A stretch of 64,000 nt of DNA, from contig NZ_FUID01000004.1 of NCBI RefSeq assembly GCF_900163635.1, positions 62,001 through 126,000 of the forward strand, read 5' to 3'. This DNA comes from Leucobacter sp. 7(1). Its GTDB lineage: Bacteria; Actinomycetota; Actinomycetes; Actinomycetales; Microbacteriaceae. Below, piece after piece: positions 14,296-32,116 of the stretch; the stretch's first letter is position 1; each line of letters opens with the position of its first letter. The notes beneath the pieces are model-generated. The model was not told the DNA's origin. It searched no databases and saw nothing but the letters and a program-made list of their open reading frames with translations. The translations under genes were made by a program, and so were the position numbers.

Positions 14296-14733
14296 CTAGC
14301 CCCGCACCCCGGTCGAACCGAAGCCGCCGGTCCCCCGCGCACTGTCAGGAAGCTCATCGACCTGTGTGAACACGGCGCGCGAAACCGGCATGATGATGAC
14401 CTGGGCGATGCGATCGCCCGGCTCAACCTCGAAGGTCGAGTGCTGATCTGTGTTGAGCAGCGTCACCTTGATCTCACCGCGGTAACCTGCGTCAACAGTT
14501 CCCGGGGAGTTCACTACCGTGATGCCGTGTTTCGCGGCGAGACCGCTCCGCGGTACCACGAAGGCGGCGTACCCCTCGGGGAGGGCGATAGACACGCCGG
14601 TCCCGATAAGCGCGCGGGCACCCGGGGCGATCGTCGCCGCCTCAGCCGCCATCAAATCGGCGCCAGCGTCGCCCGGATGGGCATAGCGCGGCGGGGTGTC
14701 GGCAAGGATCGGGATCTCTACTACGTCGGTCAC
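14296..14733 (-). CDS. dut: dUTP diphosphatase
   Basis: A 145-residue trimeric dUTPase that hydrolyses dUTP to dUMP, keeping uracil out of DNA. The five motifs can be followed: HPGDAGADL, PRSGLAAKHGI, the catalytic-Asp region NSPGTVDAGYRGEI, GDRIAQVII, and the C-terminal glycine-rich arm GTGGFGSTG that closes over the active site. The GTG start at 14733 has no separate Shine-Dalgarno sequence but has TAACCT 6 bases upstream, the arrangement expected for a leaderless message. It leads the dut-DUF3710-DUF3159 group. Confidence 0.95.
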   Translation of the reverse strand: MTDVVEIPILADTPPRYAHPGDAGADLMAAEAATIAPGARALIGTGVSIALPEGYAAFVVPRSGLAAKHGITVVNSPGTVDAGYRGEIKVTLLNTDQHSTFEVEPGDRIAQVIIMPVSRAVFTQVDELPDSARGTGGFGSTGVRG

Positions 14734-14739
14734 TCCGCC

Positions 14740-14745
14740 AGGTTA
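14740..14745 (-). promoter_or_regulatory. -10 box (TAACCT), leaderless start of dut
   Basis: TAACCT lies 6 bases before the GTG start of dut, and the intervening bases (GGCGGA) would be too close to act as a normal ribosome binding site. Confidence 0.45.
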
Positions 14746-14820
14746 TCGGATCAACCCAGGCACGGGCCCGCAGATTCGGTCACCACGGCGACACTCAGGG
14801 CTTCTCGGGGTGACACAGAG

Positions 14821-14826
14821 GATAAT
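14821..14826 (+). promoter_or_regulatory. -10 box (GATAAT), leaderless start of DUF3093 gene
   Basis: GATAAT differs by one base from TATAAT and ends 7 bases before the ATG at 14834. This spacing supports the second of two in-frame ATGs (14825, 14834) as the true start. Confidence 0.45.
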
Positions 14827-14833
14827 GGGACAC

Positions 14834-15322
14834 ATGACGAGCGACGTTCCCGCCTCACCGGCGGCCCCCGCATCCCAGGCCCAACAGAGCTACCGGGAAC
14901 GGCTGATTCCAGGACCGGGCATGTTCCTGGCCCTCATGCTCCTTCTCCCCGCGGTGGCACTCGTGTGCACTCCGATCAACGCCTCAATCGCGATCCCCGC
15001 GGGAATCATCGTCTACCTCATCGCGGCCGTGACGCTGCTCCTGCTCGCCCCCACCATCCGTGTCGTGGGCGACCGCCTCATCGCCGGCCACGCCGAAATC
15101 CCCGTCTCACAGCTCGGCGACATCGAACTTCTCGGGGCCGAAGGCCTGCGCGCCGCAATCGGTCCAGGCCTCGACGCCCGCAGCTACCTGCTCGTACGCG
15201 GCTGGATCCACCGCGGTGTTCGCATCACCAACATCGATCCGGCGGATCCGGCACCCTATTGGATTCTCACCACGCGCCACCCGCAGAAGCTTGCGACGGT
15301 AATCCGCGCCGCACAGGGCTAA
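14834..15322 (+). CDS. DUF3093 family membrane protein
   Basis: A 162-residue protein of the DUF3093 family. A short polar start with YRERLIPGPGMF is followed by two hydrophobic segments (about 34-55 and 58-78) and a C-terminal soluble part with WIHRGVRI and DPYW-like DPAPYWILTTRHP, the usual wording of this family. It probably sits in the inner membrane with the C-terminus inside. The gene is divergent from dut and is often next to it in related genomes. Function is unknown. A very large hairpin follows 56 bases after the stop. Confidence 0.8.
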   Translation: MTSDVPASPAAPASQAQQSYRERLIPGPGMFLALMLLLPAVALVCTPINASIAIPAGIIVYLIAAVTLLLLAPTIRVVGDRLIAGHAEIPVSQLGDIELLGAEGLRAAIGPGLDARSYLLVRGWIHRGVRITNIDPADPAPYWILTTRHPQKLATVIRAAQG

Positions 15323-15378
15323 CTCTCCGCCCCCTCGAGGAAGGCACAGCACCGCGGATCACCCAAGACCGCAGAGCA

Positions 15379-15434
15379 CACAGGGCCCGTGTTCGGGAGG
15401 CTGGAAACCAGACCTCCCGAACACGGGCCCTGTG
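15379..15434. terminator. Large bidirectional hairpin between DUF3093 and DUF4193 genes
   Basis: A perfect 22-bp stem (15379-15400 with 15413-15434). The 12-base centre can itself pair (CTGG-AAA-CCAG with one bulged A). It lies between convergent genes and should end DUF3093 transcription; read from the other side it would be the last barrier after the 62-bp repeats. Confidence 0.75.
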
Positions 15435-15464
15435 CTGTCGCACACGCGAGACTCCCCTGCGTTG

Positions 15465-15712
15465 CTCGCGCGGTGGCGCGACCGCAGAATGCGGTCAGAC
15501 GCTTCGCGTCTTCCCTAGGAGCATTCCTCGCGCGGTGGCGCGACCGCAGAATGCGGTCAGACGCTTCGCGTCTTCCCTAGGAGCATTGCTCGCGCGGTGG
15601 CGCGACCGCAGAATGCGGTCAGACGCTTCGCGTCTTCCCTAGGAGCATTCCTCGCGCGGTGGCGCGACCGCAGAATGCGGTCAGACGCTTCGCGTCTTCC
15701 CTAGGAGCATTC
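15465..15712. repeat. 62-bp tandem repeat, four copies
   Basis: Four head-to-tail copies start at 15465, 15527, 15589 and 15651, almost identical (C/G variation at the junction). Each unit holds three small hairpins in a row: CGCGC-GGTG-GCGCG, GACCGCA-GAA-TGCGGTC and AGACGC-TTC-GCGTCT, then CCTAGG. The last copy runs over the final codons and stop of the DUF4193 gene, so the unit looks like that gene's end plus its terminator, amplified. Confidence 0.95.
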
Positions 15713-15988
15713 TGCGCAGATCGGACCGAGATCCGTCTGGTGGTCCATCTGGGACCGGTGCCGCACCAAGAAGCAGTTCACACACGTAAACTCATCATCC
15801 TGCTGCGGGAGGACAACAACGTCCAGTTCAACATCGGACAGGTCCGATCCGCCCAGGTCGAAACTGGGGTTGTCCGCGTCCTCTGAATCAAGGCCAGATG
15901 CGCCCTTTGCGGGGCCGCGCTCTTTCAGAGCCTCAATGGAGTCGGCTTCCTCTTCGGACTTCCTGGGGGCGTCGTAATCAGTGGCCAT
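15701..15988 (-). CDS. DUF4193 family protein
   Basis: A 95-residue acidic protein of the actinobacterial DUF4193 family. It begins MATDYDAPRKSEEEADSIEA and ends with a small zinc-ribbon-like part: FTCVNCFLVRHRSQMD and the closing PICAECS, giving two CxxC pairs. This suggests one bound zinc ion, but the role is unknown. The ATG at 15988 is preceded by AGGAG at 4 bases; the open frame to 16030 is not needed. The stop codon and the 12 bases around it form part of the 62-bp repeat found downstream. Confidence 0.88.
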   Translation of the reverse strand: MATDYDAPRKSEEEADSIEALKERGPAKGASGLDSEDADNPSFDLGGSDLSDVELDVVVLPQQDDEFTCVNCFLVRHRSQMDHQTDLGPICAECS

Positions 15989-30394: not shown

Positions 30395-32116
30395 ATGAGT
30401 GAATCGGTGGTCCTCCCCGCACTGGGCGAGAGTGTAACCGAGGGGACGGTGACTCGTTGGCTCAAGAACGTGGGCGACACCGTTGAGGTCGACGAGCCGC
30501 TGCTCGAAGTCTCGACCGACAAGGTCGACACGGAGATCCCCTCCCCCGTTGCTGGCGTAATTCAGGAAATCCTCGTCCCTGAGGACGAGACCGCCGAGGT
30601 CGGCGCGGTTCTGGCGATTGTTGGTGACGGCGCAACTGCGCCCGCTGCCGCGGCGCCCGCTGCGCCCGCGCAGGCCGAAGCCCCCGCCGCCCCGGCTGCT
30701 GCTCCGGCACCCGCCGCCGCCCCGGCTGCTGTACCCGCCGCCGAAGCGCCCGCTGCGGCACCGGCTGGCGGTGGCGAGGATGTGGTTCTCCCGTCGCTCG
30801 GCGAGAGCATCACCGAAGGCACTGTGACGCGCTGGCTCAAGAACATCGGCGACACCGTTGAGGTCGACGAGCCGCTGCTCGAGGTATCGACGGACAAGGT
30901 CGACACCGAGGTGCCGTCGCCTATTGCTGGTGTGCTCCAGGAGATCCTGGTGCAGGAAGACGAAACGGTCGAGGTCGGCGCAGCGCTGGCACGCATCGGC
31001 TCGGGTTCCGCTCCGGCAGCGCCCGCTGCGGCGCCGGCTCCCGCAGCCGCCGCACCGGCTCCAGCAGCCGCGCCCGTCGCTGCACCGGCTCCCGCTGCAC
31101 CGGCTCCCGAAGCCGCACCGGCTCCCGCAGCCGCCCCCGCACCGGCTGCTGCTGCACCTGCACCTGCACCTGCACCTGCTCCTGCTCCTGCTCCTGCTCC
31201 TGCAGCAGCTTCGGTCCCCGGCTACGTCACCCCGATCGTGCGCAAACTTGCTCACGAGCGTGGTGTCGACCTCGCAGGCATCACCGGAACCGGTGTGGGC
31301 GGGCGTATCCGCAAGGAAGACGTGCTTGCCGCGGCTCCCGCCACCGCAGCCACTTCGGCATCGACCCCGGCCGCAGCGGCACCCGTCGCCGAGGTCTCAC
31401 CGCTGCGCGGGACGACGCAGAAGATGAGTCGCCTTCGCAAGGTCATCGCGGAGCGCGCTGTCGCATCACTGCAGGGCACGGCGCAGCTGACCACCGTCGT
31501 CGAGGTTGACGTCACGAAGGTGGCGCAGTTCCGTCAGGCAAAGAAGGACGAGTTCCTCGCCAAGACCGGCTCGAAGCTTTCCTTCCTGCCGTTCTTCGCA
31601 CTGGCCGCCGCCGAGGCGCTTCGCACGTACCCGATCATCAATGCGACGGTAGAGGGCGACCAGATCGTCTACCCCGACACCGAGAACATCAGCATTGCGG
31701 TCGACACTGAGCGTGGACTCCTGACCCCGGTGCTGCGCACCGCAGGTGAGAAGAACCTCGCGCAGATCTCGAACGAGATCGCGGATCTGGCGCAGCGCAC
31801 GCGTGACAACAAGCTCACGCCGGACGAGCTCAGCGGGGGCACCTTCACCCTCACGAACACCGGATCGCGCGGCGCGCTGTTCGACACGCCGCTCGTGTTC
31901 CTCCCGCAGGTTGCCATCCTCGGCACCGGCGCGGTCGTGAAGAAGCCCGTGATCGTTTCCGGCCCGGAAGGCGACGCGATCGCCGTCCGCTCCACCGTGT
32001 ACCTGGCGCTCTCCTACGATCACCGAATCGTCGACGGCGCTGACGCGGCGCGCTTCCTCACCCAGGTGCGCACGCGCCTCGAAGGCGGCGACTTCGCAGG
32101 GAACCTCGGGTACTAA
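30395..32116 (+). CDS. sucB: Dihydrolipoamide acyltransferase E2 with two lipoyl domains (SucB/AceF)
   Basis: A 573-residue E2 subunit. There are two nearly identical lipoyl domains with lipoylated lysines Lys43 and Lys168, each in VSTDKVDTE, joined by Ala/Pro-rich linkers. The second linker (about 206-273) is almost purely Ala and Pro. A peripheral-subunit-binding domain follows ([22 protein letters not shown]), and then the acyltransferase core ending in the catalytic SYDHRIVDG (His543, Asp547). In actinomycetes such a protein often serves both pyruvate and 2-oxoglutarate dehydrogenases. The ATG follows GGAG; lpdA is just upstream and a perfect hairpin follows. Confidence 0.93.

Follow-up and report, generated by a model that had tools for sequence, protein, structure and literature searches.

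The tandem array in which the DUF4193 gene ends is probably the local amplification of a non-autonomous palindromic element that has spread within Leucobacter and whose outer stem is completed by host sequence, and the best reading of this element is as a new palindromic family of the REP/RPE kind. The array lies in the window, by which we mean the whole stretch of 64,000 nucleotides that was analysed. Whereas a fixed sequence is the usual mark of a palindromic repeat, the constant feature here is pairing with the host: the stem of each copy matches its own host site, a property that is new and that may either be templated from the site or be kept by compensatory change.

The members share the skeleton T–bulge–HP1–T'–HP2 and a length of approximately 62-66 nt: T comprises 10 nt, often starting with CGC, T' is complementary to T, the spacer is as a rule the longer one on the 5' side, by 4 nt, the HP1 core is ACGC..GCGT-like and HP2 is a hairpin such as CTGGCGCCACTGCGCCAG with a loop of the CACT type. 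At gene ends, T consists of the last codons of the host gene, and the stop codon falls in the spacer, in HP1 or in the HP1 loop. In the window, the DUF4193 gene runs on the minus strand (15701..15988; ORF list and Pfam PF13834, E 1.2e-30), with coding bases 15988-15704 and a TAG stop codon at 15703-15701. TRF gives a single array at exactly 15465-15712 (minus strand) with a period of 62, 4.0 copies and 98% matches, its score of 489 being the highest of 11 rows in the window, and the repeat search returns spacings of 62, 62 and 62. Thus, the four near-identical tandem 62-bp copies described in an earlier note on this DNA are real, as is its reading that the unit holds a copy of the DUF4193 tail together with the stop codon, which is located inside the copy nearest the gene. 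Unit 1 (15651..15716, minus strand) overlaps DUF4193, the last codons of which are its strand T; covariance model R1 matches it with 67.2 bits (E 6.8e-11 in the window, 4.2e-9 in the whole genome), and it divides into T (15716-15707), the spacer with the stop codon (15706-15698), HP1 (15697-15683), a linker (15682-15679), T' (15678-15669) and HP2 (15668-15651). Unit 2 (15589..15654, 58.7 bits), unit 3 (15527..15592, 52.5 bits) and unit 4, the most distant from DUF4193 (15465..15530, 58.7 bits), lie on the same strand; the R1 search of the window listed two of the four (1 and 4), units 2 and 3 being taken from the whole-genome search, which also returned unit 4, and the window coordinates of unit 2 are contig positions minus 62000. 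The 22-bp hairpin reported beside the array is likewise present, as a perfect inverted repeat with a 12-nt loop (15379..15434; arms 15379-15400/15413-15434) that separates the array from the convergent gene DUF3093 (14696..15322, plus strand, start uncertain; ORF and PF11292, E 1.1e-36), and it is a candidate bidirectional terminator outside the element. Elsewhere in the window, positions 31032-31203 hold GC-rich tandem repeats, including CTGCTC x 9.7.

All three mini-hairpins that the earlier note had assigned to each unit can be made out in the sequence. The middle one of these, GACCGCA/TGCGGTC, is however mismatched in a sister species (L009), and the pairing conserved across the family uses the bases of this hairpin, joining the gene tail CGCAGAATGC with GCATTCTGCG. 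The minus-strand RNA 15740-15465 folds at -152.8 kcal/mol, compared with -116.7 (sd 5.25) for 200 shuffles (z -6.9); its minimum-energy structure pairs the tails over distance and the centroid retains one middle hairpin, so that the predicted fold does not decide between the middle mini-hairpin and T:T' pairing, which share bases. A putative role of the array as a 3' RNA stabiliser is possible. That it acts as a stacked intrinsic terminator, as had also been proposed, is very improbable: strong hairpins are indeed found at the gene end, but they lack a U-tract, no intrinsic-terminator-like site (a GC-rich hairpin plus a T-run) occurs in 15250-15800, sites at the icd gene that carry the element mostly keep a separate hairpin further downstream, and copies of the element are found in frame inside genes. 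Of the description of the unit as gene tail plus terminator, it is therefore the tail that stands. An Rfam scan of the array locus gave 15 matches with E values of 5 or below, none of which reached the gathering score and most of which fell on the 22-bp hairpin, and 0 matches at E<=0.1 were obtained across 10 element loci, so no such family was found there.

DUF4193 is present in 54/54 Leucobacter genomes searched, and the bases 3' of its stop codon were read in these and in 7 other genomes. Of the 53 Leucobacter genomes that could be assessed, 27 have the gene tail once more just 3' of the gene, inverted or direct; the sequence of the units varies between species, and the architecture recurs. 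Twenty-five of the 27 were assigned by thresholds (a direct copy of >=9 nt with p<=0.025 or an inverted copy of >=10 nt with p<=0.005, using 200 shuffles each); G005 and G007 were added because model R1 matches the site, and L056, whose direct copy (9 nt, p 0.02) lies within the threshold, was excluded because no hairpins accompany this copy. Outside the genus, one of the 7 genomes passes the direct-copy threshold, again without hairpins (L069, from G058 of another genus: a direct duplicate of the DUF4193 tail a few bases past the stop codon). In five species (L015, L035, L036, L039 and L053) the unit at DUF4193 is longer and holds one further hairpin; at L238, L239, L260, L035, L036, L039 and L053, HP2 is followed by an extra hairpin of the CCCACGGAGCGAAGCGCGGGGTGG type, which lengthens the unit. 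A general habit of genes to duplicate their tails was rejected as an explanation: amongst 866 Leucobacter gene tails (54 from the window, 349 from its own genome in a sample without icd, 195 from G035, 198 from G024 and 70 from named species), an inverted copy of >=10 nt plus a direct copy of >=11 nt occurred in DUF4193 tails only. In de novo scans for T-T'-T triplets, the 9-mer scan missed the array of the window, and the hairpin scan stayed near its Markov control except at DUF4193.

The wider family was found when a DUF4193-type pattern matched a second gene in G008, and a pattern for HP2 then pointed to others; 52 of the resulting loci were detailed (L271, L272 and L277 are amongst the unconvincing members). 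With one mismatch allowed, a reversed-pattern control for HP2 gave the same order of matches; the choice of sites was therefore based on palindromic arms, with the model as a subsequent check, and the elements studied are hence not a random sample of the 442 model matches. As the stem varies by site, searching the window genome with the 62-bp unit gives no other convincing match, the exact unit occurring at the DUF4193 array only, whereas the covariance model of the structure (24 members) gives 442 matches summed over 44 of the 54 Leucobacter genomes at E<=0.1, the weakest of these genomes being G004 and G014 with one match each (E 0.05-0.07) and the richest G008 with 44 matches, alongside the element-rich G037, G042 and G047. 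The case that the earlier note had named against itself, a REP-type element scattered through the genome, thus holds in part: the exact unit is confined to this locus, but related structures with other stems are scattered through the genome and the genus. Within the window genome, the model matches the four DUF4193 units, the icd tail (C83:46111), a site beside the end of a nusA-like gene (C42:5362) and further copies at C42:51397, 39868 and 39957, together with four weaker matches at chance level. In the family sample, 0/195 non-Leucobacter genomes were matched at E<=0.001 (the sample also held four Leucobacter genomes, three of which matched), and in the order sample 1/247 other genomes was matched at this cut-off, weakly (E 3.1e-4), both searches using stricter filters that lose weak matches.

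A classical GTAG-type REP mobilised by a RAYT would agree with small dispersed palindromes, some of which give stop codons; here it is scarcely credible, given that the Y1 transposase family (PF01797) was found in 0/54 Leucobacter genomes, with 5/14 control genomes positive, and that no GTAG tag is constant in the 24 aligned members or within 8 nt on either side. In the 8-nt flanks of 109 members, GTAG occurs once upstream and 0 times downstream and CTAC 1 and 2 times; as for a CGTC end tag, CGTC was seen 9 times upstream and 0 downstream and GACG 0 and 3 times in the same flanks, and GCGTC occurs inside some HP2 stems. The element also presents a case of REP-like spread for which no Y1 transposase was found in the 54 genomes. 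Reverse transcriptase (PF00078) is encoded in 8/54 genomes, including the richest, G008, but not G037, G042 or G047, and was rejected as mobiliser as it shows no clear fit to copy number.

The structure is supported by covariation. In the alignment of 24 members, 95.0% of cells are paired and 20/25 pairs show changes on both sides, with 0/500 shuffles as high and slid controls reaching 28-47% paired; in 17 aligned units from DUF4193 orthologs, 17/25 pairs are altered on both sides and pairing extends to 96.0% of cells (shuffles 0/500), and in eight icd sequences 9/26 pairs changed on both sides, the pair counts of G032 being lowered because its alignment row is shifted by one base. The base directly before T is G in 94% of 109 family members, and the stem may hence extend one pair beyond the model. 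Over 55 loci, T and T' form 8.8 of 10 pairs within their own locus and 5.5 across loci, and at least 9 pairs are reached in 71% of own-locus and 5% of cross-locus combinations; in this comparison 10/82 instances were dropped for poor HP1, and the offset of T was optimised for the own locus and not for the cross-locus case. Synonymous codon changes in the tails of DUF4193 and icd orthologs are followed by T': for DUF4193, in addition to the pair named above, the inverted copy tracks the codons in CGCGGAATGC with GCATTCCGCG, CCGCGAATGC with GCATTCGCGG and CCGTGAATGC with GCATTCACGG, and for icd in CAGCGCTTGGC with GCCAAGCGCTG, CAGCGCCTGGC with GCCAGGCGCTG, CAGCGTTTGGC with GCCAAACGCTG and CAGCGACTCGC with GCGAGTCGCTG. 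The icd orthologs without the element also have the T-matching codons, and T is therefore host sequence. The match is not always perfect, since the icd copy of the window genome itself leaves 2/11 T:T' positions unpaired; the copy of G028 has one G-U. The match also holds for two mazG-like genes that carry the element in the same position (GGCGGGATTC/GAATCCTGCC at L270 and GGCGAAACTC/GAGTTTCGCC at L289), the family search having named L270 only.

Elements favour gene ends. With one match counted per site (79 of 120 model matches), 25/64 elements outside DUF4193 have, within their first 50 nt, the stop of a long ORF on the same strand, compared with 39/1328 random windows and 3/79 on the opposite strand; the ORF filter is conservative and recognised 6/15 DUF4193 sites. 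These 25 represent 17 genes by our own grouping, with some names taken from domain matches, including icd, sucD, prs, glyS, pheA, ribF, dgt, PPK2 and a YhgE-like gene. At icd, for which 43 genomes had an ortholog, the element is present in 8/30 orthologs read: all 22 empty sites have a stem of 13-31 bp that begins 0-47 nt past the stop codon, whereas in 5/8 filled sites the strongest stem of at least 12 bp begins at +70 to +348, and in 3/8 no stem of at least 12 bp was found within 420 nt. As the hairpin directly follows the stop codon in empty sites and lies further away in most filled ones, the element seems to enter between stop codon and terminator. Other copies lie in frame inside conserved genes, namely pgm, pcrA/uvrD, mazG, hrpA, a FadH-like reductase and an ORF of the FAH family (L259 and L241 were left out as ambiguous, and L256 has a weak HP1). 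Homologs of known structure (PDB) of Pgm and of the FadH-like protein are without about 20 residues at the element site; the alignment for MazG is not clean, and the match for PcrA shows no net extra length. At L234, L296, L264, L265 and L269, the element seemingly supplies the last residues of the protein and the stop codon (for example ..GEGA, ..EENA, ..GRDA), and so it may rewrite C-termini. Some elements are nested in other palindromes, of the GGTTGAG..GTCGAAACC and GTCATCCTGCG..GCAGGATC families (L220, L227, L251, L254, L255; L242, L244, L245, L247, L248, L276), and were perhaps copied together with these as composites.

The suggestion of a variable-number locus holds, with copy number differing between sister species at DUF4193: the window genome (G000) has four units and G015 three, G016 has three and G023 one, and G021 has one unit of the longer type where G018 has none. 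G021 and G018 differ by a single period (about 89 bp) lying between direct gene-tail copies of 28 bp, and a loss is likelier than a gain because the empty site keeps half of HP1; this closest empty/filled pair thus caught no insertion in the act. On a rough three-gene tree, no fewer than 15 changes are needed to explain presence at DUF4193 (200 shuffles of the labels gave a mean of 18.3 and a minimum of 13; G050 was scored as absent although its contig ends just past the DUF4193 stop codon), so clustering on the tree is weak; presence at icd requires at least 6 changes. As its presence is patchy (27/53 assessable genomes), the element is dispensable at DUF4193. That the array is an assembly artefact has a probability close to negligible: the window genome is a draft of 106 contigs in which the array is known from assembly alone, but arrays of two units were also found in the single-contig G035 and of three units in the two-contig G016. 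In G035, an array after tRNA-Val(GAC) (L170:11731-12150) follows the same logic as that at DUF4193, with the tRNA 3' end, a terminator hairpin, the inverted tRNA tail, another hairpin and the tRNA tail in repeated order, and possibly reflects the same process at a tRNA gene; in G024, a decayed-looking piece with hairpin CAAACGCTGGCGCGTTTG is located 3' of the orthologous tRNA-Val (L182:7430-7540).

In the reading that we prefer, a mobile element would arrive close to where a coding sequence ends, in many cases in the interval from stop codon to terminator, the host sequence would close its outer stem, and the complementarity of T' to T would arise or be maintained through template-switch copying at replication, through selection for an RNA hairpin or through both. 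The direct copies of the gene tail that flank the unit could then allow multiplication or loss through tandem-repeat recombination, and in the transcript the stop codon would sit inside a strong hairpin, with probable effects on translation termination and on decay of the 3' end that are for the most part neutral or mild. Mobility is suggested by the same HP1 and HP2 cores at unrelated loci, as sequence must then have moved between loci. The spread in Leucobacter would resemble that of REPs and Rickettsia palindromic elements elsewhere. Tentatively, and with a rather low likelihood, such an element could be self-tailoring: it would bring the HP1/HP2 cores only and copy the host 3' end once reversed and once direct, thus always restoring the ending of the gene; the order gene tail - HP1 - reversed tail - HP2 - gene tail would then result from a double template switch that is hairpin-primed or resembles a dumbbell. 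Double template switching that is purely local to gene ends (duplication-inversion-duplication), with no mobile element involved, is less likely still: the L - L' - L order around two small hairpins is the product expected of it, and template switching is described as able to create and maintain hairpins in the accessible text of PMC8794818, but the cores are alike across unrelated genes and genomes, and one weak match was all that the family and order samples gave outside the genus. A domesticated RNA element, in which selection keeps T:T' and a hairpin at the stop codon stabilises the mRNA or tunes termination, spread being secondary, is possible if somewhat unlikely: it would account for compensatory change over synonymous codons at orthologous tails, for the sense orientation at gene ends and for the G-U intermediates on the sense strand that selection on RNA leads one to expect, where a weak excess was seen (42 versus 23, p 0.025), and E. 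coli REPs within 15 nt of a stop codon are described as lowering translation in the accessible text of PMC12306157. Against this, presence is patchy amongst sister species, and the pairing is equally found inside coding sequences and other palindromes; the orientation and the G-U excess no more than suggest a function at the RNA level. Returning to the mobile element with a host-completed stem, protein coding pins one strand of that stem, and the element is hence a natural test of whether RNA selection or template switching produces compensatory changes in hairpins.

A search of open-access journal papers found no description of such a family, and the host-matched stem distinguishes the element from both REPs and RPEs. 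Rickettsia palindromic elements are described as small palindromic repeats dispersed in one genus and lying in frame inside conserved genes (accessible text of PMC2229807), and by this description the Leucobacter element is alike, being dispersed in one genus and found in frame inside protein genes; it differs in its locus-specific, host-matched outer stem, in its preference for gene ends and in its tandem arrays that include copies of the gene tail. GTAG REPs often supply a TAG stop codon to flanking ORFs, and CGTC REPs are without a dedicated transposase, as far as described in the accessible text of PMC3733652: the element resembles both as short dispersed hairpins, but has a two-hairpin body of about 65 nt, a stem that is not fixed in the family and no constant tetranucleotide tag. 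As in E. coli REPs near stop codons (PMC12306157, accessible text), a hairpin lies close to the stop, although in Leucobacter coding bases form part of the stem and the stop codon lies within the structure. Template switching can make and repair stems (PMC8794818), and perfect inverted repeats occur inside coding sequences of Nematomorpha (PMC6649704), each as given in the accessible text of the source; in contrast to these, the hairpin cores in Leucobacter are conserved and recur at many loci. With regard to MITEs and their terminal inverted repeats, T and T' are inverted but locus-specific, the search for a parent element covering PF01797 and PF00078, and a candidate for a target-site duplication is the direct gene-tail copy after HP2, which is seen at many gene ends and absent at many other sites. 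YPAL/RU-2 of Yersinia has internal inverted repeats, target duplications of 3-26 bp and targets at or beside dyad symmetry, and in the accessible text of its source (PMC2229807) a target-complementary stem, such as that of the Leucobacter element, is not mentioned.
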